NCBI GenBank assembly: GCA_020629005.1
Contig: JAHDEE010000009.1
Location: 24,698 to 68,708, forward strand
From: Chitinophagales bacterium
Lineage (GTDB): Bacteria; Bacteroidota; Bacteroidia; Chitinophagales; UBA2359
Reading direction: 5' to 3'
Length of the DNA: 44,011 nucleotides
Position numbers and translations under genes: made by a program. This document shows positions 1 to 44,011 of the stretch, one piece after another (position 1 is the stretch's first letter; each line of letters begins with the position of its first letter). The notes beneath the pieces were generated by a model that saw only the letters and a program-made list of their open reading frames with translations, was not told the DNA's origin and made no database searches.

Positions 1-3000
1 AAGCAACCGGAACGACATTGATGATGGCAGGATCCTGATCGTCTTCATCCGTTTCTGGTGTTAGAGAGCCTGGAGTGCCTGTTGCATCTCCATCAATCAC
101 ATCGTCAGAAGCGGTGCCTGCAAGACCTCCGGCATCATTAGAAGGATTGGTATCGGGCGTGCTATCCAGATCGAAGGGATGTTCTCCTTCGTCATCTTGT
201 GCGTCTGTGATTTCCGCAACATTTGTTAGCAGTCCGTTTTCGGTTGCTGTGACAGTTGTTGTAATCTCGACCATAGTGTCTGATCCTGGTTGCAGTGGTC
301 CTTCAATTGTATAAACTGCATTTGCACCTGAAGCAGACCAGTCTGAATCATTAAGTTCAAGACCAGCCGGCAGGTAGTCGATTAGTTCAATATTGTAGGC
401 TGCAACGGTTCCCTGATTGTAAACACTGATTTCAAAAGTAATCTCATCTCCAGGTCGTACATTGGTGCTTTGTCCATTTGGCAACTTTTTCACCAGGGCT
501 AAATCAAACGCTACTGGCTCTACGACTACACTGGCAAAATCATGATCGTCTTCATCACCATTTGCATTTGCTGTGTTGTTATCAACTGCTTCTCCATCGT
601 TTTGATTATTGTCATCAGGCGTACTGTCTGCATCAAAAGGCTGCACTCCATTTTCATCCTGAAAAGCACTCACTTCTGCAAAATTGACCAATTCACCTTC
701 GGGAGTAACTGCTTCAAGCATCAGCTCGACTGACTGCATGCCTAGTGGCTCAAGCGGTCCTTCAATGAGAAATACTGCATCACTGCCTTGTTGTGTCCAG
801 TTCGGATCGTTTAGTATGAAGCCAGCTGGAATATAGTCTACGATTTCGATGTTGTAGAGGTCACGATTTCCTTGATTGTATACTGTAATTGTAAACAGCA
901 CCTCATCATTTGGATTCACAATTTCTGGCTGTCCTGAGGACAGTTCTTTGGTCAGGGCCACATCGTATATCGGTGTAGGTTCGGTAGTGATTACTGCACC
1001 ATCATGGTCGTCTTCGTCATCATTGGTATTATCAATGCTGTCATCCACGGATTCACCGTCATTTGCCTGGTTAGTATCAGCAACGGAATCTTCATCATTT
1101 GGATGTTGGGCAGCTTCGTTTTCTGCGTCTGCGATTTCTGCAAAATTCCACAGCTCCCCAAAGTTGGAGTCACTTACTTCCAAAACGATTTCCGCCTGGT
1201 AAGAACCTCCAGGAATGATCGGTCCGGCAACCGTCATCTCAGCCAGTTGTGCATTTTGGGTCCAATTTGGATCAGCCAGCTGCAGACCTGCCGGGATATA
1301 ATCAACCAGGTCAATATTGTAAGCCGAAACATTACCTTGATTATAGATGCTGATGGTGTACGCAACCTGATCTCCAGGATAAAAGGGGCTACTAATACCT
1401 GTGGCAAGCTTCTTTGTCAGTGCTAAATCAAATTGCTCCCTGATTGAGACAACTGCAGTGTCGTTATCATCTTCCTCCGCATCGTTGGAAGGATTAGCGT
1501 CAAAGGAGCTATCAATGTCAATTTCCAGATCTCCATTGCCATCGCTGGCCGCGGATATCTCTGCCTGATTCGTTTGCGGACCAAATCCATCCAAGACAGT
1601 GAGCGTGATGTCTACTTGCATGGTATTACCTGCTTCCAGCACTTCAGTACTAGTATACTGGGCATAGGAATCGCTTAGATTCCAATCGGGATCGTTGAGT
1701 TCCATATTGGCAGGTAGATAATCTACGATGGTGATTTGCTGAGCATCAACATTCCCCTGGTTCTCTACTTCCATGGTAAAGGTTACTTCGTCACCGATAG
1801 AGACGCTAGGCTCTTGCTGATCCGCGAGCCTTTTGGTCAAAGCAAGATCGAATAACTCGATAACTTCAACCAGGGCAACGTCGTGGTCATCTTCATCTGT
1901 GTTCGCATTAGGCGATTGCGGTTGACCAGTTCCATTGCCATCCAGAAAATCATCTGAAGGGCTGTTCACTAGAGCTCCTGCATCGTTGTCCTTGTTGGTA
2001 TCAGGCTGGCTATCCAAATCGACAGGTGAAGTTGAATCAGGACCTTTAGCCGAGAATATTTCAGCATAATTCTCATGAAGTCCAATTGCCGCATCTCCGC
2101 TAGCAGTACATTTGATATGTACCGTTGATGCCCCACCACCAGCTGGTATTGGTCCTTGTATTGTGGTCACAGCATTGCCAGCCGACATGCTCCATTGTGG
2201 ATCATTAAGTGTAAATCCGGCTGGCAGATAATCCACCACTTTCACGTTATAAGCATCGATCTGTCCCTGATTAACAAGCCTGATGGTAAAGCTTACGTCT
2301 TCTCCCGGAGTAACCGTGGGTGATTGTCCGGACATAAGGGTCTTCGTCAAAGCCAAATCAAACTTATCGATGCTAATCCTTGCTGGATCATGATCATCTT
2401 CGTCGGTATACTCATTTGGATCTCCTACGTTTCCGGTACCATCTCCGTCGAGAGCATCATCTGCAGCTGTCTCAACTGCTCCACCTGCATCATTGTCGGC
2501 GATGCTGTCGGGGCTACTGTCTACGTCCATCGGTGTGGCACCTGATTCGTCTTGTGCAGATGCTATTTCAGCATAGTTCACAATCTCATCTCCGGTGAAA
2601 GCGGGATCAACGGTAAAGGTGATATCAACAGTTGCTTGCGCTCCAGCAGGAATGACACTTGTGTAGATCATTTCTGCATCCACTCCATTCATTGTCCAGT
2701 TATTGTCATTTAAGGTGAGACCGAATGGTATGTAATCTACTATTTTAATATTTTTTGCTGCAATACTTCCCTGATTAGAAATTTCAATATTGAAAGTTAC
2801 ATCAGATCCCACTGCGACATTGGTAGAATAGCCAGGTGCAAGTTTTTTGGTCAATGCCAAATCAAATACTGCCACTTCTATTTCGGCAATGTCGTGGTCA
2901 TCTTCATCTCCATTGGATCCATCTATCGCGTCGTCGCTGTAAGGTCCATCATTGTCCGGATTGGAATCCGGGGTAGAATCGAGGTCGCTTCCAAAACTTC

Positions 3001-6355: not shown

Positions 6356-6834
6356 GATTTTGTATTATTGTGATAACTGTCTAAGATGCACGACCTCGTG
6401 ACTGATGCGCATCTCAAAAACCTTAGTGTTGATTGTTCTCCGTGAAATTTTCTTACTCCTCAAAAAATCGCTCTCCTCAATTCAGTCTGTCTGCTTCCAC
6501 ATTGTGAGATGGAAGCTTTGTTCCTGGCAAAGCTTGAGTTGGTAGGCTGTATCGCTTTGCTATCTCCTATAGTTCAAGTATTGCTCCAAGGCTGTGATTC
6601 CTTTGTAGTGAAGGACAATCTGGGCATATCCCACTGACTTTCAAGGCTTTAATTTTCAAATTTCTTTAATTTGTAGGAAAATAAAGCGCGTCTAAACTGT
6701 GTGTTTACAGGGCTGATTGTCGAGTATAGACTAGTGTTTTTTGCGGCAAAGCCGTTTCCAATCAGTTGTGCCCTGTTAGGCTTTGTATTGTATTTTTTTG
6801 GGATTAATGCGGAATTGATGACAGGAAGGGAGTA
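6356..6834. other. Upstream region of left gene, no gene seen
   Basis: This gene-free stretch lies upstream of the left gene. It is moderately AT-rich with several short palindromes: GATGCGCATC at 6404-6413, CACGA/TCGTG at 6389-6400, and the overlapping hairpins at 6493-6535. I looked for the Bacteroidota promoter pattern (TTTG, then TAnnTTTG) and found no convincing match. The open frames here have no recognisable protein features. Confidence 0.6.
6493..6535 (-). promoter_or_regulatory. Two overlapping, mutually exclusive inverted repeats upstream of left gene
   Basis: GCTTCCA (6493-6499) pairs with TGGAAGC (6510-6516). AAGCTTTG (6513-6520) pairs with CAAAGCTT (6528-6535). The arms share 6513-6516, so both stems cannot form at once. 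The pair lies 138-180 nt upstream of the left gene start. It could be a leader switch or simply an operator-like palindrome; the sequence alone does not decide. Confidence 0.35.
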
Positions 6835-6836
6835 TT

Positions 6837-6879
6837 GGGATTTGGGATTGGGGACTTGGGATTTGGGTTTGGGATTGGG
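6837..6879 (+). repeat. G-rich GGGATT/GGGATTT array, potential G-quadruplex
   Basis: Seven runs of three or four G (6837, 6844, 6850, 6858, 6865, 6871, 6877) are separated by loops of 3-4 bases such as ATT, ATTT, ACTT and TTT. This meets the usual G3+N1-7 G-quadruplex pattern on the plus strand. It lies about 480 nt upstream of the left gene, where the C-rich strand is the coding strand. Short frames through it (Asn/Pro/Lys-rich on one strand, Trp/Asp/Leu/Gly on the other) are low-complexity artefacts. Confidence 0.7.
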
Positions 6880-6934
6880 ATTCGAGGTGGCTATTGAGCT
6901 AGACATAATAGTTGCGCGATGGTGAGTGTGTCAG

Positions 6935-7113: not shown

Positions 7114-7155
7114 AAAAAAAGGCTCCTGAAGCAGAAGCTTCAAGAGCCTAAAAAA
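7114..7155 (-). terminator. Strong rho-independent terminator after middle gene (bidirectional form)
   Basis: The stem GGCTCCTGAAGC (7121-7132) / GCTTCAAGAGCC (7137-7148) has a four-base loop and one mismatch that is a G.U or A.C pair depending on strand. It is flanked by A7 on one side (7114-7120) and TA6 on the other (7149-7155). On the minus strand the stem is followed by a T7 tract, a textbook intrinsic terminator, about 110 nt after the middle gene stop codon. Confidence 0.85.
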
Positions 7156-7264: not shown

Positions 7265-10200
7265 TTACTGCTTGATGACTTTCTCGATTATTGCTTGATC
7301 GCCATCGCCAAGCATCAAGAAATATACTCCCTGACTGAAGTGAGACATATCTATTCGGAAACTGTTGGTGCCTACTATTGCCTCGCAGGATTTAAAGAAG
7401 ATCAGTTTACCTGATGCATCATACAGTTTCACATTGATTAGTTCTTCGATGTCGTAATTGAATGCTACATCCATCCAATCGTTTGCAGGTTGTGGGCTTA
7501 AGGTGATTAAGTCTCTGCTTTCAGCTTCTCTAGATAAGCTGATGATGCCCAGGTGCTGCGTCGTGCCATCCAGATCTGTTTCACTCAAGCTGTAGTACAC
7601 GGTACCGGCGAGGGTGTAGGGATCATGGAATTCGTATCGTAATTCGCTATTGCTGTTTCCTTGAGCTTGCTTCTGATGAATAGGAGTGAAGTTGACTCCA
7701 TCCTGTGAGCGACTCAATGTGTAATATGCGCTGTTTACTTCTGAGGCTGTGATCCAGCTCAGCAAGTTTCCTTGCGCCATGATCTGTCCTTCGAATGTGA
7801 TCAGGTCCACTGCGAGCTTTATGCATTCTGCTGGCGTTTCGGACACGGTATGTGTGCAACCATCGGCAGCAATGACAGTGAAGTTGAATGGCGTTCCGCT
7901 TGGATTTGGTCCTAAGACAAATCCTTCACTATTCGTTGCGGTATAGTCGCCCGAAACATCAGCCATTTCACTGAGTGCTACGATGACCGTGTAGAATTCG
8001 CCTTCTGTATCGCAGAGCACTTCATAGTTTACGGCAAGTGGACAATCCGATAGGGAAATGATTGCTATGTCTTCATCATCTTCGCGATTCTCGGGGGCGT
8101 CGGTCGGTGATCCGTTGTCTGGAGTTGAGTCTATGTCTTCCTGATCGGTATCTATGACTTGTGCATGATTGATGATATTGCCTTCGGATGCTTGTACTTC
8201 TACTAGGATGTCGAGTGTAACTGATTCTCCGGCTGGCAATTCGCCGATGTACCAATCGCCGGTGGACGGATCGTAATTGCTATTGCTGGCACCAGCATAT
8301 TCCAGTCCTGCTGGTAGCGGATCTGAGGCTATGACACCTGTGGCTGTTGCGGTGCCTTCGTTAGTCACTGTAATGCTGTATATGATCAGATCTTCCGGAC
8401 TCGGTGTAGTATTGCTGACCAGTTTAGTCAGCGTTAGATCCACGTAAGGGATTTCGTCTTCCTGAACCGTAAATGGCACGCTGTCTTCATCATCTTCTGT
8501 GTCCGGGAATTCCGGATCGGGATGCATGTTATCCGGCGTTGAATCAGGATCGATTTGATCTGTTTCCGTCACTTCTGCCTGATTGTAAATGGTGCCTGTA
8601 TAGGCGGTAACGAGGGCTGTAATGTCCAATGATGCGGATTGTCCATCTTGTAGCAGTCCAACTCTCCAATCTCCGGTTTCCCGATCATAATCTGCGGAAC
8701 TTGCAGTTAGGAATTGTACGCCTTGAGGTAGTAGATCGTTTACAACTATCCCTGAGGCGGCAGATGGGCCATGATTGTTTACAGTGATGGTGTACACAAT
8801 CTGCTCACCGTTTGCCGGCTGCTGATTGTTGACCGTTTTAGTCAATGAAACGTCTGCAATTTCTTTAACCACTTCTACGGTTTCGCTATCGTGATCATCC
8901 TCGTCATTGTCAGAGCCATCGATGGTGTCGTCTTTGACATCGCCATCGTTGCCAATATCGTCATCGGGTGTGGAGTCGATATCAGGTTGTGGATTTCCGT
9001 CTACATCTGTGGCATTGGTGATTTCGGCGATGTTTCTCAGGTTGCCTTGTATGGCGATCTCGTTTACCAGTAGCGTTATCGGTACCATTGCTGCACCTCC
9101 AGGTTGAATTGGACCGGGAATGATGGTGACAGCATTGCCTTCTACCAATGCCCAGTCTGAGTCGATCATATCAAATGCCAGTGGCAGATAATCAATAACC
9201 TGTACGTTGTAGGCAGGCATGGTTCCCTGGTTGTAGACCGTAATCGTATAGGTGATTTCCTCACCTGGCGCAACAAGTGCTGATTGTCCATCTTCCAGAC
9301 CTTTTATCAGGGCCAGGTCGAAGACATCTTCGTCGGTAACTGTAAATTCTTCATGATCGCTATCGTCTTCATCGGTAGCTGGATCGTCGCCTCCAGGGGT
9401 ACCAGTGCCGTCGCCATCCACTACATCATCGGTATCGGGAGAACCTCCGGCGTCGTTGTCTGGATTGCTATCTGGTGTGCTGTCTTCATCGGTTGGGTGG
9501 TCACCGTTTTCATCTTGCGCATCGCTGATCTCTGCCAGGTTGAGTCTTGTTCCTGTGCTACCTGGCATCACTATGAAAGTGATGTTCAGTTCAGCGCTTG
9601 AGCCAGCGACAATCGGACCTTCAATGCTTGTGACAGCGTTTCCATTAGCCATGCTCCAATCAGTATCTGCCAGCATGAGTCCTTCGGGAATGTAGTCGAT
9701 GATTTCTACGTTGTAGGCATCGGTACTACCCTGATTGAAGACCTGAATGCTGAAGGTAATTTGATCGCCTGGCTGCACTACTGGAGCCTGGTTGGCTGCC
9801 AGCTTCTTTATTAGAGCAAGATCAAAGTTGTCTTCGTTCGGCTCCTCTTCAACTGTAAAGGTCTCGTGATCGCTATCGTCCTCATCTGTAGCTGGATCGT
9901 CGCCTCCTGGAGTACCTGTGCCATCACCGTCAACCGTGTCATTGGTTTCTGGTGAGCCACCTGCATCATTGTCAGGATTTGAATCCGGAGTACTGTCTTC
10001 GTCAGATGGATTTTGTCCATCTTCATCTTCTGCGTCGGTGATTTCGGCAGTGTTGACAATGGTTCCCGATGCCTCTTCCATGACGAGGAAGGTGATATCG
10101 ATAGAGGTGCTGGCACCGGCCGGGAGAGGACCTGGGATGCTTGTTATAGCTTGTCCATTCTCCATACTCCAGTCTGTGTCTGCAAGCATTAATCCTTGTG

Positions 10201-27082: not shown

Positions 27083-27381
27083 GATTAGATGGCCTGCCCA
27101 ATGCAAACTCCCTGCCACACATTGTTACGCAGTTAAACAATTCTTAACTTGTTATTCCTTTCGCTATATTTCAGTGGGTTCGTATGTAATATTGCTGCTT
27201 GGCATAATGCCTAAACGCTGCAAATATCCCGACTCAGAGCTCCACCGCCAAGACTGATTTCGCAAGCAAACAATTCGTCCAAAAACTAGTACAAATGGAC
27301 TTCGAAAATTTGACTTCTTATCTAAGGCATCAATAGTCCTATAATGTATATGGATGAGTCTTCAATTTAGATAGTAATTAT
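27083..27381. other. Upstream region of middle gene, no gene seen
   Basis: This AT-leaning stretch lies immediately upstream of the middle gene. Bacteroidota often lack Shine-Dalgarno sequences, and none is visible before the ATG at 27082. No clear TAnnTTTG promoter element was found; a near-match (TAGTTTTTG on the minus strand, around 27280) has one extra base. Short open frames here have no support. Confidence 0.5.
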
Positions 27382-28158: not shown

Positions 28159-28192
28159 AAAAAGGGCCCTCATTCCAATTAATGAGGACCCT
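28159..28192 (-). terminator. Rho-independent terminator of right gene
   Basis: On the minus strand the 12-bp stem AGGGTCCTCATT / AATGAGGGCCCT, with one G.U pair and a six-base loop, is followed by TTTTT. It begins 25 nt after the stop codon at 28217-28219. This is a standard intrinsic terminator and separates the transcripts of the right and middle genes. Confidence 0.85.
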
Positions 28193-28216
28193 TGTAATTT
28201 CAGTTCATGCCTTGAT

Positions 28217-31200: not shown

Positions 31201-34200
31201 TCATGTAGGTGATGTCATCTCCCACCATGACGCTCTCTGGTTGGCCAGATGCCAATTGCTTGATCAGTGCCAAATCGAAGTGATCTTCTACTACGGTAAT
31301 TACTTCAGGATCGCTGTCGTCTTCATCACCAGTTGGGCTTTCTCCACCAGGTGTATCGCTGCCATCGCCATCAACCTCATCATCGCTCGGACTGTCTGGC
31401 TTACCTCCACCATCATTATCTGGGTTATCATCTGGCTGACTATCTACATCCTCTTGTGGATCACCATTTTCATCTTCCGCACCGCTAATTTCTGCAACAT
31501 TTACCAAGTCTCCTGACTCGCTAATGGTACAGGTGATTTCTATGGCTATGCTGGCTCCTGCTGCTATTGGACCCGCAATTGAATAGCTGGCCTGCTGACC
31601 ATCGTAATTCCAATCAGAGTCATTTAGTACCAGGCCAGCTGGCAAGTAGTCGTTGATCAATACATTGTAAGCATCGATTGATCCTTGATTAAACACTGTG
31701 ATCATGTAGGTGATATCGTCACCAACCATGAAGTGCTCGGGTTGCCCGGATGCCAATTGCTTGATCAGTGCCAAATCGAAGTGTGCTTCTTCAACAGTAA
31801 TTACCTCTGGATCACTGTCATCTTCGTCTGTAGATGGGTCACTGCTCTGTGGTGTACCTGTTCCATCTCCTCCAGTTTCATCATTGGAATCTCCTTCTGG
31901 ATTTCCACCAGCATCGTTATCTGGTTGCTTGTCTGGAGTGGAATCCGGATCTTCTATGACATCCCCGTTTTCGTCTTCTGCACCACTGATTTCCGCGAGG
32001 TTTACAATGTCGCCAGAACTAGCCGTAACAGTAAATGTTATTGGAATCGCAATGGAGTTGCTTGCAGCAAGTGGTCCTGCGATGTTTGTGATGGCATTAC
32101 CATTCGAAACCAACCAATTATTGTCGCTCAAAATTAAACCATCCGGAATGTAGTCCACAACTTCGATATTGTAGGCATCGATGGATCCCTGGTTGTAAAC
32201 CGTGATTATGAAGGTCACTTGATCGCCCTGTTGCAAAGTAGCATCCTGGCCAAAAGCCAGAGTTTTGGTCAAAGCCAAATCGAATACATCCACAACAACA
32301 GTGGCTGGGTCGCTATCATCTTCATCAGTAGCAGGGTTTTCAGAACCAGGAGCGCCGGTTCCATCACCATCAACTACGTCGTCAGAGTCTCCATCCGGAT
32401 TACCTCCCGCATCATTGTCTGGGTTCTGGTCAGGATTACTATCCCAATCCTCAGGATGATCTCCTGACTCATCTTCGGCATCTGCAATTTCTGCCACGTT
32501 GACAAGCTCACCGCCTGCAAAGTCTGCATCCACCTGGAGTGTAATGTCCACGCTGGTTTGACTTCCTGGAGGAACAGGACCTGCGATAGTGGTCGTAGCC
32601 TGATTTCCAGAAGCAGTCCAATCGGCATCTGCCAGACTCATGCCACCTGGGATGTAGTCTACTACGTCAATATTATAAGCAGCTACTGTACCCTGATTGA
32701 ATACGGTAATAGTATAGGTCACCAAATCTCCGGCAGAGACTACAGCGGGCTGGGCCTCGTGCAACTGCTTCACAAGCGCAAGGTCAAATAGATCATTTTC
32801 AACAACTATGGTTTCAGGATCACTGTCGTCCTCATCATTGTTCTCATTGTCTGTTTCATCATCTGTTGCCGGGCCGTCGTTGTCCGGGTTGCTGTCTGGA
32901 TCAGAGTCATCATCTGGTGGATGATTTCCGTCTTCATCCTCTGCATCTGTAATCTCAGCCAGATTGGTGATGAATCCTGAAGCAGCTACAACTTCAAAAG
33001 TAATAGGTATGACAGCACTTCCACCAGCCGGTACCGGACCTGGCAGCATGTACTCAGCCAAGCTTCCATTGAGCGTCCAGTCGCTATCGGCCAACAGTAA
33101 TCCATCAGGTACATAATCTACTATGTCAATATTGTAAGCCGAGACCGTTCCTTGGTTGTAAATCGTGATTATAAAGGTGACCAGATCGCCAGTAGATACC
33201 GTGGAACTTTGGCCGGAGGCCAAGGTCTTGGTCAATGCCAGGTCAAATCCTTGTTCGATAAAGATCTCCTCTGGATCACTGTCATCTTCATCCGTAGCTG
33301 GATTATCACCTCCAGGGGTACCGGTTCCGTCACCACCTGTCTCGTCGTTGGTCTCATCATCTGGATTACCTCCAGCATCATTGTCTGGATTATCATCTGG
33401 CGTACTATCCCAGTCATCAGGATGATTGCCTTCAGAATCTTCTGCATCGGTAATCTCAGCCATGTTGACCAAGCTTCCTGAGCCATTCACAACCAGCATC
33501 GTGATATTCACCGTGTAGCTGAAACCCGCAGTAATCGGTCCGGCAATGGTGGTAGTGGCGGCGCTTCCATCAGCGGAACTCCAGTCACTATCGGCCAGTT
33601 GCAAACCAGTAGGGATATAGTCGATCACATCCACATTATAGGCATCAACTGTTCCCTGGTTGAATACAGTAATGGAGTATTCTACCAAATCACCAATGCT
33701 CACTGTAGCTGGCTGACCAGGAGCGAGGGTCTTAATCAATGCCAGGTCAAAGATGTCCTCAGCTGTAAAGACAATTACTTCTTCCGGATCGTGGTCATCT
33801 TCATCTCCGTTCTCACCATCAGTTGTATTATCTGTTACCGGTCCATCATCATCCGGATTTGTATTTGGCTCTGAATCGCTGTCTTCAGGGTGTCCGCCGT
33901 CTTCATCTTCAAAGTCCGCGATTTCAGCTACATTCTCTAAGGTACCAGAGATTGCAGCGATCTCTACTGTAATTTCAACTTCTGTACTTGCACCGGCAGC
34001 CAGAGGTCCTGGGATCATGGTAGAAACCATAGAACCTTGTCCAGACCAATTCTCGTCTGCCAACAACATTCCATCAGGCAAATAGTCTACTACTTCTACA
34101 TTGTAAACCGGCTCTGTACCCTGATTGAAAACCGTGATGACAAAGGTCACATATTCGCCATTGGCTACAACACCATCTTCAAATGGTGCTAGTGTCTTGA

Positions 34201-37200
34201 TCAGCGCGAGGTCGTATCCAATCAAGTTTACACTTGCCGGATCACTATCATCTTCATCTGTAGCAGGATTGTCATCACCTGGACTTCCTGAACCGTCACC
34301 GCCCGTTTCATCATCTGCTGGTGAATCAGGCTGTCCTCCTGCATCGTTATCCGGGTTGTTATCTGGAGTACTATCAACATCTGGCATATCGTTGCCATTC
34401 TCATCAAAGGCATCGGCAATTTCAGCCACATTGGTCAGTTCGGTGCTTTCTCCGTTTACTTGCAATGTGATTTGTACAGTAGTACTGCTAGCTGCTACAA
34501 TTGGACCTGCAATGGTCGTATAAGCTGTAGCTCCAAGCTGGGACCAGCTGTTGTCTGCCAGGTCAAAACCTGCCGGGATATAGTCAGCAATTTCAACATT
34601 GTAGGCATCAATGGTTCCCTGGTTGTAAACAGTGATATCGAAGGTCACAAGATCGCCAGCACTTACCTCAACTGTCTGTCCTTGGATCAGTGATTTTGTC
34701 AAAGCAAGATCAAAGTACTCTTGCACCTGAATCACAGCAGGGTCACTATCATCTTCATCTGTGATCGGATTGTCATCTCCAGGTGTTCCTGAGCCATCAC
34801 CATCGATTGCATCATCAGCTGGCGATTCTGGATTTCCACCTGCATCATTATTCTCATTGGTATCTGGTGTACTGTCTTCGTCGCTAGGATTGTTGCCATC
34901 TTCGTCTTCTGCAGATGCAATCTCTGCAACGTTAACGATGTCTCCGGATCCTGCCGTTACCGTAAAGGTAATATCCACTGATTCAGAGGTCCCTGAGAAG
35001 ATTGGACCTGCTAGTGTAGTCAAAGCATTGCCACCACTCAGCGCCCAGTCAGGATCATCCAGTTGCAAGCCTGTAGGAATGTAGTCTACGACGCTCACAT
35101 TATAAGCATCTACATTCCCTTGATTATAGACAGTGATCGTAAAGGTCACTTGGTCTCCTGGGGAGACAAGACCGGATTGTCCACCTGCCAATTGCTTATC
35201 AAGCGCAAGGTCGAAGCTTTCTGAGATGATTACGGTCTCCGGATCGTGATCGTCTTCATCTGTCAACGGATTATCGTCACCAGGGTCTCCAGTTCCATCT
35301 CCATCAGTAGCATTGTCTGCTGGGCTGTCAGGATCACCACCGGCATCGTTGTCGCTTTGTGCGTCAGGACTAGAGTCCACATCATCAGGATGGTTTCCAT
35401 CTACATCTTCAGCATCAGTGATTTCGGCGAAGTTGGTCAAAGTACCAGAAGTCGCAATGACTGTCACAGAGATATCTACTGTAGCTGATTCACCAGCTAG
35501 GATCGGCCCTGAGTAAACTGTAGTTGCAACATTGCCTGTCGCCACCCAATCAGGATCATTGAGTACCAGACCTGCTGGCAGATAGTCGATCAATTCGACA
35601 TTGTATGCATCAACATCTCCTTGGTTGAAGACCGTGATTCTGTAAGTCACAATATCGCCTAGTGATACGTATTCACTTTGCCCTGGAGCAAGCGTTTTCA
35701 TCAGGGCCAAATCAAAGTTGGCTTCTACTTCGATCACTGCTGGATCGCTATCGTCCTCATCTGTTGTTGGTGAGGTATCGCCAGGAGTTCCACTACCGTC
35801 TCCACCTGTGGCATCATCTGATGGGGAGTCTGGTTCTCCTCCAGCATCATTATCGCTGTCGGTATCAGGAGTGCTATCTACATCCTGCGGATGGTTCCCA
35901 TCAGGGTCTTGTGCATCAGCGATCTCAGCAACATTCACAATGCTACCTCCTGATGTCACCACAAAGGTAATATCCACTTGCTCACTAGCTCCCGCAGCAA
36001 GAGGCCCGGCAATCGTAGTAGTCGCATTAGGACCGCCTAGAGTCCAATCCACATCGTCAAGTTGCAGGCCGGCAGGAATATAGTCTACGACTTCAATGTT
36101 GTTGGCTGTAATGTTACCCTGATTGTAAACAGTAATGGTAAAGGTAACCTGATCACCAATGGCTACGGAAGCACTTTGGCCCACAGCCAGCGTCTTAGTA
36201 AGAGCGAGGTCAAATACTGGATCAAGTGTAATTAGTTCCGGATCATGATCGTCCTCGTCTCCAAGGTCATTTCCATCTCCAATACCACCGGTACCATCTC
36301 CGTCCGTTTCATTGTCTGCAGGTGAATCTGGTTGACCTCCTGCATCGTTTGTATTGTCATCGTCAGCCGTGGAATCTATATCGTCAGGATGATTGCCTTC
36401 TGTATCCTGAGCATCACTAATTTCAGCGTAGTTTACCAGGTCTCCAGCAGCGGCATTTGGATCGACCGTGAAGCTGATATCTACTGTTGTAAATCCACCT
36501 GATGGGATCGGACCTGCAATCATCGTAGTCGCAGTGCTTCCGTTATCCACCCAATCAGAATCGCTTAGGATTAGTCCGGCTGGAATGTAATCCGTTACTT
36601 CGACATTGGTCGCTGCAACTGATCCCTGGTTAAGGATTTGAATAGTAAATGTTACCTGCTGGCCTGGAAGCACATTAGCGCTTTGTCCAGATGCGAGCAT
36701 TTTGATTAGGGCCAGGTCAAAGACCTCTACATCAATACTTGCAGGGTCGTGATCGTCTTCATCTTCTGCTGGATTCTCCGAACCAGGAGTACCGCTTCCA
36801 TCTCCATCTGTTGCGTCATCTGAAGGGCTATCCGGAGCACCTCCAGCATCATTGGTTCCGTTTCCATCCGGAGTGCTATCGACATCCATTGGCGTGCCTC
36901 CATCTGTATCTTCAGCAGCGGCGATCTCAGCATAGTTCACCAGCGTACCTCCTGCGAAATCAGCATCTATGGTCAGTGTAATATCAACTGTAGTGCTCTG
37001 TCCTGCTGGAATCGGACCGTCGATAATTGTCGTGGCATCAGATCCACTAGCAGTCCAATCGCTATCGTTCAGACTCATACCAGCTGGGATATAGTCTATC
37101 ACTGTTACATTTGCTGCGTCAACGTTTCCTTGGTTATAAACAGTAATCGTAAAGGTTACGTCATCGCCAGCCGAGACAGGAGTGATTTGACTACTTGACA

Positions 37201-40200
37201 GCTCCTTTGTCAATGCAAGGTCGAAGAGTTGCACGTTGACAGACTCAGGGTCATGATCATCTTCGTCTGTTGCAGGATTTCCATCTCCCGGAACTCCTGA
37301 ACCATCTCCATCGACATGATCATCGGCAGCAGAATCAGGTTGTCCTCCGGCATCATTTGTACTGTCATTATCCGGAGTTGAATCTACATCAGTAGCTGGT
37401 CCTTCAGAATCTTCAGCAGATGCAATCTCTGCAAAGTTTGTAAGGGTTCCGGCGTCGGCATCCGGTGAAACGGTTAGTGTAATTTGAATCGTTGTACTCT
37501 CACCTGCAGGAAGTGAGGAAAGGAGATATGTTGCCTGATTTCCAGAACCAGTCCAGTCACTATCTGTCAATACGAAGCCAGCAGGGATATAGTCTACAAT
37601 CTCTATATTGAATGCATCCAAATCTCCTTGATTCGTAACAGTAATATCAAAATCTACTGCCTCTCCTGTGGACACGCTTGCATCTTGTCCAGCAGACAGA
37701 GTCTTGGACAAAGCAAGGTCAAAAGTACATGGAACTGTTTGCAATTGCAGGGCGGCGCTTGTAGTGATACAGTCAAAGCTGTCTCTTGCAATGGCCTGAT
37801 AGAATCCCGATTCCGTAGCTTCCAATGTAGCTATTGTTCCAGACTGTACTTCAATGCCATCGAGGTACCAGGTGATGAGTTCATAGTCGCCGGGACTCAA
37901 GAAAAGGGTAACGCTCTCTCCCTGACAGAATGGATTATCTCCATCCATAAGCAATTCCGGCTGAATTACTTCATTATGTTCCACCAAGATTGGTGCGCTC
38001 AGTCCTACACATCCCTCGGCTGTTGCGACCTCGACTGTATAGAGTCCTGCATCAGCTGCATTCAAAACGATCGACGTTTCACCAGGCATAAGAGCATCTT
38101 CATAGTACCATTGTACACTGGAATAGCCGCCCACGACGTTAAGTACCACATCCTCTCCGGGACAAGCGGAAGTAAGACCTTGTATGATGATCTCAGGTTG
38201 CGGTATTGGGTGTAGCTCGACATCAATCGATTGCAGCAGACTGGTACAGCCATTTGCATCTGTCACCTCAACGGCGTATGTGCCCGAAGTCATTGCTGCC
38301 AATTGATTCGTAGTTTCCGCTGGAAGTACTTCCTGTCCTAAATACCAGGTGTAACTATCAAATCCTGCACTTGCCTCCAGTTGTACAGATTCTCCTTCAC
38401 ATGCTTGTGAAGGACCGACAACTGTTAGCATAGACTCCGGCAAAGGATTAACCGTCAGGCTGACCTCTCCACTCCAGCCTTCGCAGGCATCACTTGATAC
38501 GACTTGAACGGAGTAGAGTCCAGGCTCTGTTGCTGTCATTGTATTTATCGTTCCTGACTGCCAGATAACTCCGTTGTTGTAAAACTTGTATTGAGCATAT
38601 CCAGGGCTGGCCTCTATAGTTGTGCTGGCGCCGAAGCAGATTTCTGCATCTTCGATCGCAATACCTGGCCGAGCGGCATCCAAAACAGTAATAAGAATCT
38701 CATCGCTCTCCTCACATCCGTTAAAGTCTCTAATAGTAATGGTATATGTAGTTGATTCAGTAGGACTAGCAATTGGGTTCGCACAATTTGTACATGATAG
38801 ACTGCCATCATCAGGAGTCCAGGTGTAAGAGCCACCTCCAGAAGCGATCAATTGTGTTGTTTCCCCTTCGCAAATAATTGTTTCCGTTACATCCACATCT
38901 ATTGAAGGCAGAGGATTCACAGTCACTACCACAGCATTGCTGGTGCCTTCACAATCGTTGGCATCAAATACCACAACCGTGTAAACCCCTGGCAAAGTGG
39001 CCAGGTAGGTATTTGAAGGCATGCTCTGTACTAGCAAAATACCATTTAGGTACCAGTCATAATCCGTAAACCCTGCATCTGCTTCCAGTAGTACAGGAAG
39101 ATTCTCTTCGCAAGCGGAAGGTCCAGTAGGTGCAATCAATGTAGGCTCCGGCAGTGGATTCTCAGTTACCGTAATCGGCGCCGTGATGCCGCTGCATCCG
39201 TTTAAGTCATCTACAAATACTGTGTAGTCTCCAGACTCAGTTGCCGTATAAACTGAAGCATTGGCCCCGATAATGGGCTGGCCATCTTGATACCACTGAT
39301 ACATGCCATATGTACCAATGATACTTAGCAATACATCCCCATCGTCGCAGAAAGTAGTTGGACCTTCAGGATAGATGAATGGCTCAGGCTGAGGTAATAC
39401 CACTACTTCAATTTCCTGCATAAAACCTGTACAGCCATTTGCGTCAGTAACCTCAACAGTTACCAGCGCTGAGGCTGATACATCATAAAAATCAACAGCA
39501 CCACTTTGTACTAGTAAACCATCCAGGTACCAGTCGTAGTTGCCGTACCCTGATTCAACAATTACACGAATATCACCTGGTTCGCAGAAGGTCGTTGGAC
39601 CATTCAAAGTGAAGGTAGGCTCAGGCGTTGGATTCACAGTAATAGCAATCGGTGCAGATTCTGAAATGCAGCCATTGTCATCAGTAAGCACAACGGTGTA
39701 TTGACCTGTTTGATCCGCAATGTAGCTATTGTTGGTTCCAGTTTGAACCAGAGTCTGTCCATCCAGGATAAAGTCATAGTTATCTCCTCCGGCTGGACTA
39801 GCTATTAGTTCAACCGTCTCTCCTTCGCAGAAGATCACAGGTCCATTTGCAGTCAGCTCCGAAAGAGGAAGAGGATTAATTGTCACGTCAATAGCTGTTG
39901 TCGGAATTGGGCAATATAGACCCTCCACAAGCGCATAATAGGTCCCACTTACCGTGGGATCAAAACATCTGTCAGTTGCGTCCGTCACCGGCATATCCAC
40001 TGTCGGATCAGGATTGGCAGGATCAGTAGCCATATACCACTGATACCCCAACCATTCTTCTGTTACGCAAATTTCGAGATTGTCTCCCTCACAAATTACG
40101 GGGAAATTGCTTTCATCAATTCCAGGAATCTCACTAGGAACATAACCAGCGTCAACATCGTAGTTGCATTCATTATCTCCCAGAGTAATCATAGCCGTAA

Positions 40201-43200
40201 CTCCGGTGATCGGCGCTGCATCGCTGTTATCGGCATCAGTAATCACTCCGGTCGTAGGACCAATTTGCAGACCCGCTGGTTCAGAGAAAATCAGGTAATA
40301 GGTTCCTGGCACCACATCATCAAAGAGATAGGCACCGTCAATGTTTGTGATTTCAGAACCGACAAAATCGCCAGTTTCTGTATACAGAGAAACCTGAGCT
40401 CCTGGAAGCATTGCCTCTCCTTCATTCAGTATTCCATCATTATTGCAATCTATCCATGTATTGTCACCCAGGCAAGCATAGCAGGGATCCTCGGTTACTG
40501 TCCAGAGTTCAGAATAACCAAAGCATGGTCCGCTATCATCTACTCTCACATAGTAGTCTCCTGGTTCTGTCACAGATAAGGTGGATGAAGGACCAGACTG
40601 TATAGCAGGATCAAAAAATGCAGGGCTGTCCATGTACCAGGTATAATCGTCGAAACCTGGTGTGGCCTCAAGTACTACTGGTGAGCCAGATGCACAAACA
40701 GTAGTTGCTCCAGAAATAGTTACCTCGGGAGCTTCCAGCATGAAGACATCTTGAGATGTCTGGTAGGTACAACCGTTCTCAAGGGTCACAGTAAAAGTAT
40801 AGGTAGCGTCTACCACCGGGCAAATCGTTATAAAACCACCTTCTTGGTATACTCCTATGTCTGGCTCAACTACAATTGTAGCCGTACTCATATCGACATC
40901 GGGAATAGAAATAGTGAAAGGGGTGCAGCTGCCCGGACATACATAGCTTGGGCCCCTAACGTTCAGGGTAAAATAGCAATTAAATACCTCGATGAGGGCA
41001 GGGTCTGCATCGTCCTCATCTGTAGTTGGGTCTGTTCCCCCTGGCTCGCCGGAACCATCACCATCTACAACATTGTCTGAAGTAGTTTCAGGTTCACCTC
41101 CAGCATCATTTCCATTGGTACTATCCGGAGTCGAATCTATATCAGGCAAACCAAGATCATTCTCTGCAGAGGATATCTCAGCTACATTAACCAGTGGGCC
41201 GGTGCCAGTCCAATCTTCGACTATAAAGGAAATATCGACAGTCGTAGAATCTCCAGCAGCCAGAAAAGGAATTGCGTTATTAAGCTCGACAATGTCGAAA
41301 CCTACAAATGTCCAGTCTGGATCATTCAAGTTTAAGTTCGGAGGGAAATAGTCGATGATCTGAATATTGGAAGCATCAAGTGTCCCCTGATTGTAAACAG
41401 TAATTGTAAAGGTAACCAGGTCTCCCCAAAGGAATATCGGACCCGGAGTCAAGGTAGTATTCAATTCCTTCTTCAGAGCGAGGTCAAAAGATTGCACCAA
41501 ATCGATCCTTGCTGGATCTGCATCATCTTCATCTGTTGCCGCAACCGTATCACCCGGAATACCTGAACCATCTCCATCCACAACATTATCCGAAGTGCTG
41601 CCTTCACTACCACCAGCGTCATTACTGATAATACTGTCAGGAGTTGAGTCTTTATCATTCAGTCCTGCCTCGTTAGTAGCGGAGCTAATTTCAGCTACAT
41701 TGAGCAGACTGGCTTCTTGTGTGTTTGGATCAATCGTGAAAGTTATGGGTACTTGGACGTTGCCTCCTGCTGGAATAGACAGTATGGGGGTATTGCGTGT
41801 TGCTATGCTGCCTGAGGCAGTCCAGTTGATGTCGTTGAGAATAAGACCACTCGGAATGTAGTCCGTGATCTGTACATTACTTGCTGCCAAAGTCCCTTGA
41901 TTATACACAGTGATCAAGAAGGTAACCGTGCCACCTGGCGCATAAGGACCAGGTGTCGCAACTGTATCTACTACCTTCGTAAGGGCAAGGTCGAACTCCT
42001 GATTGATCGAGATCTGAGCGGGATCGGCATCATCTTCATCCGTTGCCGGATTGGTATCACCTGGAACGCCCTCGCCGTTTCCACCAGTCACATTATCTGA
42101 AGCGGTTTCGGGGCTACCACCGGCATCATTACCATCAATGGCATCTGGTGTAGAGTCGATATCCGGCAAAGCAGAAGCATTGGTAGCAGAACTAATCTCC
42201 GCCGTGTTTACCAATGTCGAACCAGTGAAATCTGAATCAATCGTAAAGGTGATGTATAGCTTTGTACTGGAACCAGCCGTTAGGCTAGCGATGTTTGTAT
42301 TCAAAGTAGCGATACCTCCTGAAGCCGTCCACAGCGGATCGTTCAAAGTCAGGCCCACCGGAATGTAATCACTGATGGCAATATTTGTTGCATCAACTGT
42401 TCCCTGATTGAATACCTCAATTTCAAAGGAAACGGTAGAGCCTGGTGTGAAAGGCCCAGGAGTGCTTGCAGTGTCTAAAACCTTTGTCAGCGCGAGATCA
42501 AAATATTGGGTAACAGTGACTTGAGCCGGATCTGCATCGTCTTCGTCTGTTGCTGCTATCGAGTCATCTGGAATACCGGTTCCATCTCCATCGACTGAAT
42601 TATCGCTAGCTGTCTCCGGATTACCACCTGCATCATTGGTGGCAATGCCGTCAGGTGTACTGTCAATATCGGAAACACCGCCACTGTTTGTTGCTGAGGA
42701 AATTTCCGCCTCATTCACCAGACTAGTTCCACTGAAGTTACTATCAATAGTGAAGGTAATATCTCTGGTTGTGCCGGTACCAGCGGCTAGTGCTGCAATT
42801 GGAGTATTCAGGGTTGCAATACCGCCAGGTGCAGTCCAGTTTGTATCGTTTAGCGTCAGACCTGTTGGGATGTAATCACTGATTTGCACTGCTGTAGCAT
42901 CCAGCGTTCCCTGGTTTATTACCGTGATCGTAAAGGTTACTGTAGATCCAGGATAATAGGGTCCCGGAGTGGCAGTTGTGTTTACTACTTTGCTGAGTGC
43001 CAGGTCAAAGAAATCTGGAGGAGTACAATCCGCAGGCGCATTGTACTGATCTGTATCACCACAGGAACCACTAGCAAAGGTTGCTGTGATCGGGTTTGCC
43101 AGCGAAGCATCTGCAGCGACAGTAAACGTTAGGTAAGCTGGTGATGCTGTGGTAGCCGGATCTATACTCTGTGTAGTCGTACCAATAGTTACATTGAGCA

Positions 43201-44011
43201 TTTCCCCAACAGGCTCATTTGCCCAAATCACTTCGACAGTGACATCGGCTGTACTAGTCGAATTCGCATAAACACATGGACCAACGCTAACATTGGTAAT
43301 GATTATACTACATGGCTGACAAAGTGTAACATCCAGATCCGCCGATGCGAAGGTAGAACAGCCAGTATCTACATCTGTTACGACCAGGTCATAGGTCTTG
43401 CTGCCCGTCCCTGTAAGGTAGACCTCGGGATTCGCGGCATAAATGTCTGACAGAGTACCATCGTTCGGTCCCCATGTATAATTATAGTTTCCGGATGGTG
43501 AAATGACAGGCTGAAAAGTCACACCGGTTTGTCCGAGACAGGCCCCCACAGTCGGAACAGTGACTTCCGGAGCCGGTGTTGGGTTTACACCCACAGTTAG
43601 CTCGGCAGTAGCTACACAACCGTTTGCCGCGACTGCGGTTAGCGTATAGGTGGTTGTTTCGCTAAGACAGGCCATAGGATTTGCAATGTTCGGATCAGAT
43701 AGGCCAGTAACCGGTGACCAGTAATATTGAGTACCGAATTGTGGTTCGGTTCCAATCTGTACGCAGGCGTTTTGGCAGATTGTTGTGGAAGCCAATACCG
43801 GAAGCGCAAGATCATTTACAGTCACATTAACTTCATCTACACTACTGCAACCATTATCTGTTTTGGTCAAAGTGAATGTATAAAGCCCGGCAGCAGACGG
43901 ATTAAAGGTCGGATTTGGCGACGAAGCACTGCTAAGATCCGTAGCAGGAGACCATTCGTAGCTTATACCTGCTCCGGTCGGATTTGAGGCACTACCTATT
44001 GTACCAGTCTC
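28217..44011 (-). CDS. Giant T9SS-secreted PKD / DUF11 / SdrD B-like / Ig-like surface protein (5' end outside window)
   Basis: At least 5264 residues are present. The frame stays open to the right edge: codons from 44011 read ETGTIGSASNPTGAG, which aligns with the middle protein, so the TTG at 43868-43870 is not the start. Visible order: end of the PKD/Ig-like block; CQPCS element; four DUF11 units of the TPGPx class; an Ig-like spacer; SdrD B-like domain; ten Ig-like domains; eighteen DUF11 units; beta-domain (WRVASEQNSDYYTL); type A T9SS sorting domain (ISPLPAHEFLDV, SPGVYFIVL, IEKIVKQ). The architecture is the same as the middle gene and the DUF11 count is the same (4 + 18), so these are tandem paralogs. 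The missing N-terminus probably carries a signal peptide and perhaps an SBBP propeller (inference). Likely a surface-anchored adhesin or fibre; ligand unknown. Confidence 0.95.
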   Translation of the reverse strand, partial: ETGTIGSASNPTGAGISYEWSPATDLSSASSPNPTFNPSAAGLYTFTLTKTDNGCSSVDEVNVTVNDLALPVLASTTICQNACVQIGTEPQFGTQYYWSPVTGLSDPNIANPMACLSETTTYTLTAVAANGCVATAELTVGVNPTPAPEVTVPTVGACLGQTGVTFQPVISPSGNYNYTWGPNDGTLSDIYAANPEVYLTGTGSKTYDLVVTDVDTGCSTFASADLDVTLCQPCSIIITNVSVGPCVYANSTSTADVTVEVIWANEPVGEMLNVTIGTTTQSIDPATTASPAYLTFTVAADASLANPITATFASGSCGDTDQYNAPADCTPPDFFDLALSKVVNTTATPGPYYPGSTVTFTITVINQGTLDATAVQISDYIPTGLTLNDTNWTAPGGIATLNTPIAALAAGTGTTRDITFTIDSNFSGTSLVNEAEISSATNSGGVSDIDSTPDGIATNDAGGNPETASDNSVDGDGTGIPDDSIAATDEDDADPAQVTVTQYFDLALTKVLDTASTPGPFTPGSTVSFEIEVFNQGTVDATNIAISDYIPVGLTLNDPLWTASGGIATLNTNIASLTAGSSTKLYITFTIDSDFTGSTLVNTAEISSATNASALPDIDSTPDAIDGNDAGGSPETASDNVTGGNGEGVPGDTNPATDEDDADPAQISINQEFDLALTKVVDTVATPGPYAPGGTVTFLITVYNQGTLAASNVQITDYIPSGLILNDINWTASGSIATRNTPILSIPAGGNVQVPITFTIDPNTQEASLLNVAEISSATNEAGLNDKDSTPDSIISNDAGGSEGSTSDNVVDGDGSGIPGDTVAATDEDDADPARIDLVQSFDLALKKELNTTLTPGPIFLWGDLVTFTITVYNQGTLDASNIQIIDYFPPNLNLNDPDWTFVGFDIVELNNAIPFLAAGDSTTVDISFIVEDWTGTGPLVNVAEISSAENDLGLPDIDSTPDSTNGNDAGGEPETTSDNVVDGDGSGEPGGTDPTTDEDDADPALIEVFNCYFTLNVRGPSYVCPGSCTPFTISIPDVDMSTATIVVEPDIGVYQEGGFITICPVVDATYTFTVTLENGCTYQTSQDVFMLEAPEVTISGATTVCASGSPVVLEATPGFDDYTWYMDSPAFFDPAIQSGPSSTLSVTEPGDYYVRVDDSGPCFGYSELWTVTEDPCYACLGDNTWIDCNNDGILNEGEAMLPGAQVSLYTETGDFVGSEITNIDGAYLFDDVVPGTYYLIFSEPAGLQIGPTTGVITDADNSDAAPITGVTAMITLGDNECNYDVDAGYVPSEIPGIDESNFPVICEGDNLEICVTEEWLGYQWYMATDPANPDPTVDMPVTDATDRCFDPTVSGTYYALVEGLYCPIPTTAIDVTINPLPLSELTANGPVIFCEGETVELIASPAGGDNYDFILDGQTLVQTGTNNSYIADQTGQYTVVLTDDNGCISESAPIAITVNPTPEPTFTLNGPTTFCEPGDIRVIVESGYGNYDWYLDGLLVQSGAVDFYDVSASALVTVEVTDANGCTGFMQEIEVVVLPQPEPFIYPEGPTTFCDDGDVLLSIIGTYGMYQWYQDGQPIIGANASVYTATESGDYTVFVDDLNGCSGITAPITVTENPLPEPTLIAPTGPSACEENLPVLLEADAGFTDYDWYLNGILLVQSMPSNTYLATLPGVYTVVVFDANDCEGTSNAVVVTVNPLPSIDVDVTETIICEGETTQLIASGGGSYTWTPDDGSLSCTNCANPIASPTESTTYTITIRDFNGCEESDEILITVLDAARPGIAIEDAEICFGASTTIEASPGYAQYKFYNNGVIWQSGTINTMTATEPGLYSVQVVSSDACEGWSGEVSLTVNPLPESMLTVVGPSQACEGESVQLEASAGFDSYTWYLGQEVLPAETTNQLAAMTSGTYAVEVTDANGCTSLLQSIDVELHPIPQPEIIIQGLTSACPGEDVVLNVVGGYSSVQWYYEDALMPGETSIVLNAADAGLYTVEVATAEGCVGLSAPILVEHNEVIQPELLMDGDNPFCQGESVTLFLSPGDYELITWYLDGIEVQSGTIATLEATESGFYQAIARDSFDCITTSAALQLQTVPCTFDLALSKTLSAGQDASVSTGEAVDFDITVTNQGDLDAFNIEIVDYIPAGFVLTDSDWTGSGNQATYLLSSLPAGESTTIQITLTVSPDADAGTLTNFAEIASAEDSEGPATDVDSTPDNDSTNDAGGQPDSAADDHVDGDGSGVPGDGNPATDEDDHDPESVNVQLFDLALTKELSSSQITPVSAGDDVTFTITVYNQGNVDAANVTVIDYIPAGMSLNDSDWTASGSDATTIIDGPIPAGQSTTVDITLTIDADFAGGTLVNYAEIAAAEDTDGGTPMDVDSTPDGNGTNDAGGAPDSPSDDATDGDGSGTPGSENPAEDEDDHDPASIDVEVFDLALIKMLASGQSANVLPGQQVTFTIQILNQGSVAATNVEVTDYIPAGLILSDSDWVDNGSTATTMIAGPIPSGGFTTVDISFTVDPNAAAGDLVNYAEISDAQDTEGNHPDDIDSTADDDNTNDAGGQPDSPADNETDGDGTGGIGDGNDLGDEDDHDPELITLDPVFDLALTKTLAVGQSASVAIGDQVTFTITVYNQGNITANNIEVVDYIPAGLQLDDVDWTLGGPNATTTIAGPLAAGASEQVDITFVVTSGGSIVNVAEIADAQDPDGNHPQDVDSTPDTDSDNDAGGEPDSPSDDATGGDGSGTPGDTSPTTDEDDSDPAVIEVEANFDLALMKTLAPGQSEYVSLGDIVTYRITVFNQGDVDAYNVELIDYLPAGLVLNDPDWVATGNVATTVYSGPILAGESATVDISVTVIATSGTLTNFAEITDAEDVDGNHPDDVDSSPDAQSDNDAGGDPDSPADNATDGDGTGDPGDDNPLTDEDDHDPETVIISESFDLALDKQLAGGQSGLVSPGDQVTFTITVYNQGNVDAYNVSVVDYIPTGLQLDDPDWALSGGNALTTLAGPIFSGTSESVDITFTVTAGSGDIVNVAEIASAEDEDGNNPSDEDSTPDTNENNDAGGNPESPADDAIDGDGSGTPGDDNPITDEDDSDPAVIQVQEYFDLALTKSLIQGQTVEVSAGDLVTFDITVYNQGTIDAYNVEIADYIPAGFDLADNSWSQLGATAYTTIAGPIVAASSTTVQITLQVNGESTELTNVAEIADAFDENGNDMPDVDSTPDNNPDNDAGGQPDSPADDETGGDGSGSPGDDNPATDEDDSDPASVNLIGYDLALIKTLAPFEDGVVANGEYVTFVITVFNQGTEPVYNVEVVDYLPDGMLLADENWSGQGSMVSTMIPGPLAAGASTEVEITVEIAAISGTLENVAEIADFEDEDGGHPEDSDSEPNTNPDDDGPVTDNTTDGENGDEDDHDPEEVIVFTAEDIFDLALIKTLAPGQPATVSIGDLVEYSITVFNQGTVDAYNVDVIDYIPTGLQLADSDWSSADGSAATTTIAGPITAGFSYTVNITMLVVNGSGSLVNMAEITDAEDSEGNHPDDWDSTPDDNPDNDAGGNPDDETNDETGGDGTGTPGGDNPATDEDDSDPEEIFIEQGFDLALTKTLASGQSSTVSTGDLVTFIITIYNQGTVSAYNIDIVDYVPDGLLLADSDWTLNGSLAEYMLPGPVPAGGSAVIPITFEVVAASGFITNLAEITDAEDEDGNHPPDDDSDPDSNPDNDGPATDDETDNENNDEDDSDPETIVVENDLFDLALVKQLHEAQPAVVSAGDLVTYTITVFNQGTVAAYNIDVVDYIPGGMSLADADWTASGNQATTTIAGPVPPGSQTSVDITLQVDADFAGGELVNVAEIADAEDESGDHPEDWDSNPDQNPDNDAGGNPDGDSDDVVDGDGTGAPGSENPATDEDDSDPATVVVDVFDLALTKTLAFGQDATLQQGDQVTFIITVYNQGSIDAYNIEVVDYIPDGLILSDNNWLVSNGNAITNIAGPLAASNSIAIPITFTVTASSGDIVNLAEISGAEDENGDVIEDPDSTPDKQPDNDAGGNPEGDSNDETGGDGTGTPQSSDPSTDEDDSDPEVITVEEAHFDLALIKQLASGQPEHFMVGDDITYMITVFNQGSIDAYNVLINDYLPAGLVLNDSDWNYDGQQASYSIAGPIAAGASIAIEITCTISESGDLVNVAEISGAEDENGDPQEDVDSQPDDNPDNDGGGKPDSPSDDEVDGDGSDTPGGESPTGDEDDSDPEVITVVEDHFDLALIKQLASGQPESVMVGDDITYMITVFNQGSIDAYNVTINDYLPSGLVLNDSDWSYDGQQASYTMAGPIVAGSSMALEITCTITEAGDITNVAEISSAEDENGDPQTDGDSQPDDNPDNDGGGKPDSPSDDEVDGDGSDTPGGENPSGDEDDSDPHTISVEEPVFDLALLKQLEADQSAVLSEGDLVNYEITVFNQGDISAYNVELVDYIPEGLQLADSSWEMQGSDAVKTITGPIPPGASATVGISFIILEGTEGTLINYAEITDAQDPDGNHPEDQDSNPDSTPDNDAGGDPTGGSNDSVDGDGTGSPLGSDPSTDEDDSDPEVITVTDEIIYDLALIKRLSPGQSPNVSLGDIVSYTIMVFNQGNQPVYNIEVVDYINEAFILVDDDWQMEGNNAVHTIAGPLSPGQSMDIEISLQLTTAASEGELLNVAEVTSATDESGDPIEDVDSTPDTDPDNDGDVKDDATDSSDDDEDDHDTEVIEVSKEVVDLSLLKTVNSGQAQNGDEVIYELTVSNAGPDTATGVVVEDLLPAGVSFLTASSLDYNTGTGAWTVGTLAAGQSETLYLTVAVTATSGTIYNLAQVSEQDQPDVDSEPDNMNPDPDATDKEDDEDIAILIIEELAADVALTKVVSDTTPATGDLIIYSIVVTNQGNLDITGLVVNDQLPEGVSYAGASESSYDPVSGDWYVGDLMIGESRSLDIMAEVIAGSGTITNFAEVKEMDQEDVDSTPDNGDPNGDPSEQEDDEDIAIIILSDCPGFQSSYEVLCDESGEFYTVIVSLSQPATISGDYQGQTDSGFILGPNANGTPFAFSATSEDGCVITIEETPAECIKLAVELINFFGSSQDNGNLLSWRVASEQNSDYYTLYRSVDGINFTPILEQRAVGNNSTAMSYDHLDNYLEAGVVYYSLTETDFDGHTEHLGLISLERSTSASELISISPLPAHEFLDVLFDSDRNQSVDLQLYDSSARLIFDFKEEAQAGRNRSTIDMSIYSPGVYFIVLDLNGQRHIEKIVKQ
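28220..28480 (-). other. T9SS type A sorting domain of right gene
   Basis: The C-terminus reads ISISPLPAHEFLDVLF, LQLYDSSARLIF, IDMSIYSPGVYFIVL and IEKIVKQ. It matches the middle-gene tail almost motif for motif, so both proteins should use the same export and anchoring route. Confidence 0.92.
29010..37723 (-). repeat. DUF11 array B of right gene, eighteen units
   Basis: Units begin near 37723, 37225, 36721, 36214, 35716, 35215, 34714, 34216, 33751, 33247, 32788, 32284, 31780, 31279, 30778, 30268, 29802 and 29398. As in the middle gene, the last two are a separate capping class (VDLSLLKTV, DVALTKVV). Linkers are Asp/Gly-rich (DxDSxPD, NDAGG, DGDGTG, DEDDxDP). Confidence 0.9.
30779..31780 (-). 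repeat. Recent 501-nt tandem duplication of a DUF11 unit
   Basis: The units 31280-31780 and 30779-31279 are each exactly 501 nt (167 codons). Their proteins start identically (HFDLALIKQLASGQPE) and share MVGDDITYMITVFNQG, EITCTI and a linker with the unusual NDGGGKPDSPSDDEVDGDG stretch. DNA identity is much higher than between other units. Both contain a Cys absent from most DUF11 units here. Confidence 0.9.
37730..40105 (-). repeat. Ten Ig-like domains of right gene
   Basis: Ten domains start with VICEGD, IFCEGE, TFCEPGD, TFCDDGD, SACEEN, IICEGE, EICFGA, QACEGE, SACPGE and PFCQGE. The sixth has LSCTNC and a WTPDDG strand. Correspondence with the middle gene is one for one; for instance, the third domain in both carries the TFCEPGDIRV start and the fourth LLSIIG. 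Confidence 0.85.
40135..40490 (-). other. SdrD B-like domain of right gene
   Basis: The signature is ACLGDNTWIDCNNDG, LNEGEAMLPGAQVSLY and GAYLFDDVV. Position and neighbours are the same as in the middle gene. Confidence 0.85.
40990..43012 (-). repeat. DUF11 array A of right gene, four units
   Basis: Units begin near 43012, 42502, 41995 and 41488 (period 507-510 nt). They belong to the TPGPx subclass, with linkers ending DEDDADP. The last unit is divergent (TPGPIFLWGD, FPPNLNL). Confidence 0.9.

Follow-up and report, generated by a model that had tools for sequence, protein, structure and literature searches.

Three adjacent giant genes of a Chitinophagales bacterium probably encode fibrillar adhesins exported by the type IX secretion system

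What kind of locus carries three giant repeat-protein genes side by side, and do such genes vary the cell coat, build a single fibre or encode separate surface proteins? The question was raised by a stretch of DNA of 44,011 nucleotides (hereafter the window) from a Chitinophagales bacterium, corresponding to bases 24,698–68,708 of the 68,708-bp contig C23 in a MAG of 6.9 Mb and 456 contigs that is 96.7% complete. Three minus-strand ORFs occupy ca. 42.0 of the 44.0 kb (ca. 95%) and are transcribed in the order g3, g2, g1. ORF coordinates and alignments bore out the preliminary description of this DNA in so far as it reported three adjacent, co-directional giant paralogs filling nearly the whole window. 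The genes, and the hairpins that follow two of them, are:

1..6355, minus strand: g1, 5' half (ORF 2–6355, open at the window start, 2,118 codons)
7120..7149, minus strand: terminator-like hairpin after g2 (consensus match only)
7265..27118, minus strand: g2, complete (6,617 codons from a GTG, 6,605 from the ATG at 27082)
28162..28193, minus strand: terminator-like hairpin after g3 (consensus match only)
28217..44011, minus strand: g3, 5' end missing (open at the window end, at least 5,264 codons)

The hairpins, together with spacers of 0.9–1.1 kb between the giant genes, suggest that g1, g2 and g3 may be transcribed separately. The right end of the window is the end of contig C23; when the missing 5' end of g3 was sought with the terminal 65-mer and 55-mer, the sole match in the bin was C23 itself. 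Directly left of the window lies a 100-N scaffold gap (C23:24598-24697). Gene g1 runs across this gap to a stop at C23:18406, with a T9SS C-terminal domain (CTD) of its own at the end; its two halves are in different frames because the length written for a scaffold gap is arbitrary. In a second genome of the same genus (G001), the g1 orthologue on contig C14 is an uninterrupted ORF of 4,517 aa followed by the same acetyltransferase gene that follows g1, and g1 is therefore one gene. By comparison with this orthologue, ca. 0.6–1.1 kb were lost in the gap, so that full-length g1 would have about 4,400–4,500 codons. The idea that g1 is a fragment of a gene broken by assembly, held open in the preliminary description, was rejected in view of the stop and sorting domain beyond the gap and of the intact orthologue.

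Past the acetyltransferase gene, the downstream flank carries a thioesterase-like gene and further genes that have no obvious connection with the giants. Flanking T9SS or glycosylation genes had been envisaged, but none directly adjoins the assembled, downstream side of the cluster, and the nearest glycosylation candidate is a family-2 glycosyltransferase ca. 10 kb away. No recombinase was found among ten flanking proteins scanned. A 250-aa protein encoded at L006:11028-11777 matched both the CHU_C and the Por_Secre_tail sorting domains.

The domains assigned to the three products are, in window coordinates:

14-3325, minus strand: g1, first seven DUF11 units
about 3326-5746, minus strand: g1, Ig_7/PKD-like array
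5747-6079, minus strand: g1, SdrD_B domain
7268..7495, minus strand: g2, T9SS type A sorting domain (TIGR04183)
8078..16792, minus strand: g2, stalk block 2, sixteen standard and two divergent DUF11 units
16793..19144, minus strand: g2, second Ig_7/PKD-like array, Cys-rich
19145..19546, minus strand: g2, SdrD_B domain, where the homology to g1 starts
20054..22072, minus strand: g2, stalk block 1, four DUF11 units
22073..25444, minus strand: g2, Cys-rich PKD/Ig-like array
25445..26947, minus strand: g2, N-terminal tip of ca. eight 60-aa repeats, beta-propeller-like by eye only
28220..28447, minus strand: g3, T9SS type A sorting domain (TIGR04183)
29030..37723, minus strand: g3, stalk block 2, sixteen standard and two divergent DUF11 units
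40082..40477, minus strand: g3, SdrD_B region, placed by colinearity with g2
40985..43009, minus strand: g3, stalk block 1, four DUF11 units

Judged by eye, the N-termini of g1 and g2 are hydrophobic and resemble signal peptides. The g2 tip matched no Pfam or NCBIfam model; an assignment to the Pfam SBBP propeller was discarded, since no match appeared even at an E of 1, and a single-sequence AF2 model of the tip was unusable (pLDDT 37.7). Between stalk block 1 and the SdrD_B domain, g2 has a further Ig region. As assembled, g3 corresponds to residues 1351–6619 of g2 and has the identical unit count (4+16+2). By contrast, g1 lacks the tip of g2, its first PKD array and its first four-unit DUF11 block, and is colinear with g2 and g3 solely from the SdrD_B domain onward, at 40–43% identity. 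The claim of a shared domain order and sequence therefore holds for g2 with g3 and for g1 from SdrD_B onward, and fails for the part of g1 that precedes it. Weak Pfam and NCBIfam matches to cold-shock, TRAP_beta, bMG10 and retron effector families were discounted as overlaps on DUF11 repeats.

The stalks, along which DUF11 matches recur throughout, are built from a unit of 167 aa, the DUF11 or CLIPPER domain. In the family, a putative isopeptide triad (K7, D44 and N96 as HMM columns; N94 in the modelled unit) is invariant: lysine was present in 139/139 units, aspartate in 143/143, asparagine in 143/143, and all three in each of the 138 scorable units. It recurs in every unit of stalk block 2 of g2, most of which also bear an Asp-rich tail. 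As a control, DUF11 units of three other giants of the same genome were inspected and 73 of the 74 had the triad, which is therefore a trait of the domain type in this organism and not of the cluster. Lysine accounts for ca. 1% of the stalk, and the net charge of g3 and g2 is near −900 to −975. Long DUF11 proteins elsewhere in the genome include an 8,322-aa ORF (G000:C3) and an 8,201-aa ORF (C48), at loci L033-L035 and with dozens of DUF11-type units; ORFs of 5,300–6,000 aa lie on contigs C265, C341 and C180.

An AF2 model of two units gave a pLDDT of about 90 in the beta-sandwiches and of about 45–55 in the Asp-rich linkers. The model matched the CnaA-like fold of 9IFR (Z 11.6, rmsd 2.8, 114/123 residues), the solved CLIPPER domain of B9T28_05395, whose isopeptide residues are K715, D748 and N806 (PMC12617251). 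The spacing of the 9IFR triad is like that in the units of the giant genes. Neither the unit sequence nor its profile retrieved a relative from the PDB, 9IFR being found by structure alone; the top of a plain Foldseek list consisted mostly of integrin legs, read as a common Ig-type arrangement only. Triad and fold thus predict an intramolecular isopeptide bond in each DUF11 unit, a bond reported to confer heat stability and protease resistance on the domain of 9IFR (PMC12617251). The Asp-rich linkers possibly bind calcium. The stalk blocks of g2 contain no cysteine and its PKD/Ig arrays contain 36 and 28, as if disulphide and isopeptide stabilisation were confined to separate segments.

All three products end in a type A CTD that scored above the TIGR04183 cut-off of 23 (g1, 44.8; g2, 41.2; g3, 30.9 bits), in agreement with their description as giant T9SS surface proteins. 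The same genome encodes SprA (2,250 bits) and a PorU-type sortase (1,326 bits). No match to a type B CTD model was reported for the C-termini of g1, g2 and g3, and no gene of the PorP/SprF family (TIGR03519) was found on C23, where the region upstream of g3 is unassembled; the PorP/SprF genes of the genome lie on other contigs. Porphyromonas links its type A cargo to anionic LPS (PMC9143113). At least 150 type A sorting domains were counted in the 6.9-Mb genome.

Sequence comparisons dated the duplications. Genes g2 and g3 are colinear over 5,264 aa without loss of repeat register, at 57.5% identity against 39% in the next-best register; g1 and g2 share 43% over 2,099 aa of the N half and 40% over 2,201 aa of the C half. 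The longest exact DNA common to any of the three genes is 24 bp, and synonymous sites are saturated in the paralog comparisons. Between g2 and g3 dN was 0.36, and across species it was ca. 0.30 (g1/C14 and C79/C353), indicating that the duplications either roughly coincide with the split of the two species or precede it. In a tree of the core region, g1 paired with C14 of G001, and C79, a family member from another contig of the source genome, with C353 of G001, both with strong support. The giant genes are under purifying selection. For most g2 units, the g3 unit that matches best has the same ordinal number or an adjacent one, so the duplication copied an array that was already complete; local unit duplications came later: g3 units 17 and 18 are 85% identical, and g2 units 18 and 19 are 72% identical.

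At least two further family members lie elsewhere in the genome, on other contigs and with other neighbours, answering the call for a count of paralogs. One is C79, of 5,793 aa; the other is a gene split between C15 and C43, whose ends overlap by exactly 55 bp, making a joint fourth giant of ca. 6,600–6,700 aa. Within C43, a 100-N gap (1220-1319) has the same 55 bp on both sides, as though an overlap had been recorded as a gap. The giant of C15 also contains a 139-bp exact repeat (L053:1064-1202 and L053:1565-1703), whose copies are 501 bp apart, i.e. 167 codons or one DUF11 unit; it reflects the recent copying of one stalk unit. A short palindromic repeat, TTAGACGCATGCGATGCGTCTCTA, occurs in several copies at the end of C15 (approximately L053:15440-15569), upstream of the fourth giant. 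The N-terminal regions differ among subfamilies, and those of C15 and C79 (1,930 aa) have no similarity to the g2 tip over most of their length. The contigs of G001 end short of where a g2 orthologue adjoining g1 would show. Where adjacent large ORFs turned up in the other genomes scanned, most had weak homology or none, or were a single gene interrupted by a scaffold gap.

Four explanations compete with that of separate, anciently duplicated adhesins. An assembly artefact, whether a chimera or a wrong joining of what are really fewer genes, might be suspected in a MAG of 456 contigs in which a 100-N gap and a contig end both fall inside giant genes. Yet the exact DNA shared between genes, at most 24 bp, is well below the 55-bp overlap joining contigs of the same assembly, so that the collapse of two genes into one, another concern of the preliminary description, is not plausible; the ORFs of 6,605 and at least 5,264 codons are uninterrupted, g1 is intact and followed by the same gene in another genome, and an artefact can hardly be credited. 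A locus for surface variation, where tandem paralogs would swap sequence or switch on and off to change the coat, had been suggested earlier, and repeat arrays in tandem paralogs could provide the material for it, local unit duplications being present. The deep divergence (dN about 0.3–0.36), the saturated synonymous sites and the lack of exact shared DNA beyond 24 bp speak against recent exchange or gene conversion between the genes, however; most stalk units resemble the unit at the same or a neighbouring position of the paralog more than units of their own gene, g1 and C79 each have a one-to-one counterpart in another species, and the ten flanking proteins scanned include no recombinase. 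Old paralogs under purifying selection argue against a rapid surface-variation cassette, which we regard as very unlikely.

Gliding-motility adhesins of the SprB type, which move along the cell surface, have a similar giant repetitive design, and a T9SS is present here. SprB has a type B CTD and is held by, and needs, SprF, whose gene is adjacent (PMC9143113); the CTDs of g1, g2 and g3 are type A, their downstream neighbour encodes an acetyltransferase and C23 has no PorP/SprF-family gene. The resemblance to SprB consequently did not extend beyond size and repetitiveness, and a motility adhesin of this type was rejected as highly improbable. A composite in which the three proteins build one multi-component fibre or layer, each paralog being a distinct subunit, would fit genes that are adjacent and on one strand and whose products have stalk and anchor in common but differ at the N-terminus. 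Against it, a single operon is not indicated, given the terminator-like hairpins after g2 and g3 and the 0.9–1.1 kb gaps, and two more members reside on other contigs among other neighbours; we consider such a composite unlikely.

Combined, these results make it probable that g1, g2 and g3 encode tandem fibrillar adhesins of T9SS type A with covalently locked stalks and divergent tips that arose by old duplications, the term adhesin being suggested by their architecture. Each protein would be exported by Sec and then by the type IX secretion system, and anchored to the outer face of the cell by its type A CTD, via the PorU pathway. A very long stalk of DUF11/CLIPPER units would project from the cell, each unit self-locked by an intramolecular Lys-Asn isopeptide bond (K7-D44-N94) and joined to the next by Asp-rich linkers that may bind calcium, with Cys-rich, disulphide-capable Ig/PKD modules breaking up the stalk. 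The varied N-terminal modules would form the tip and probably bind a surface, a polysaccharide or another cell. The cluster would have originated in old whole-gene duplications, followed by tip divergence and by gain or loss of stalk units. A single bacterium may thus display several fibres, each with ca. 20 predicted isopeptide locks, which would offer a useful natural setting in which to test the mechanics of CLIPPER stalks and the export by the T9SS of a 6,600-residue cargo with predicted internal covalent cross-links. Still more tentatively, and with considerable doubt on our part, a co-inherited set of covalently locked fibres that are alike in stalk and anchor and differ in their tips could serve as a receptor panel or a composite fibre, as an independently evolved T9SS counterpart of Gram-positive giant-gene clusters.

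Parts of this design are known from other systems. SdrC and SdrD are MSCRAMM adhesins of Gram-positive cocci; the giant genes share with them a match to the SdrD_B domain, but carry it once in a far larger protein, and matches to full-length Sdr models scored far under their cut-offs. SprB of Flavobacterium johnsoniae, of 6,497 aa (PMC9870892), is likewise a giant, repetitive surface protein exported by the T9SS, and differs in being surface-mobile and in the CTD type and sprF linkage described above. CLIPPER (DUF11, PF01345) adhesins (9IFR, PMC12617251) are alike in the tandem DUF11 stalk, the K-D-N triad, the fold and the C-terminal sorting domain, co-occurrence of DUF11/CLIPPER with Por_Secre_tail having been reported (PMC12617251); distinctive here are three tandem paralogs, about 20–22 units in each, and Asp-rich inter-unit tails of ca. 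60 aa. The size and clustering of the genes are unusual, as first proposed, but not unprecedented: Giant1-5 of Apilactobacillus kunkeei are five consecutive genes for extracellular proteins of 3,000–8,000 aa (PMC12863079), and g1, g2 and g3 likewise form a run of three consecutive giant genes for predicted extracellular proteins. Both sets comprise consecutive diverged giants with an N-terminal signal (signal-like by eye in g1 and g2), long repeats and a conserved C-terminus; those of A. kunkeei belong to a Gram-positive organism, have predicted beta-solenoid N-termini and no T9SS, and differ in domain make-up, as compared by description. The literature thus already contains CLIPPER stalks combined with Por_Secre_tail (PMC12617251) as well as the concept of a giant-gene cluster (PMC12863079); within open-access papers, the cluster of three T9SS giants is a new example of such a cluster, and an unusual find in Chitinophagales-type bacteria. 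Clusters of giant extracellular-protein genes, seen in a Gram-positive bee symbiont, would therefore occur also in Bacteroidota, with another export route and another repeat chemistry.
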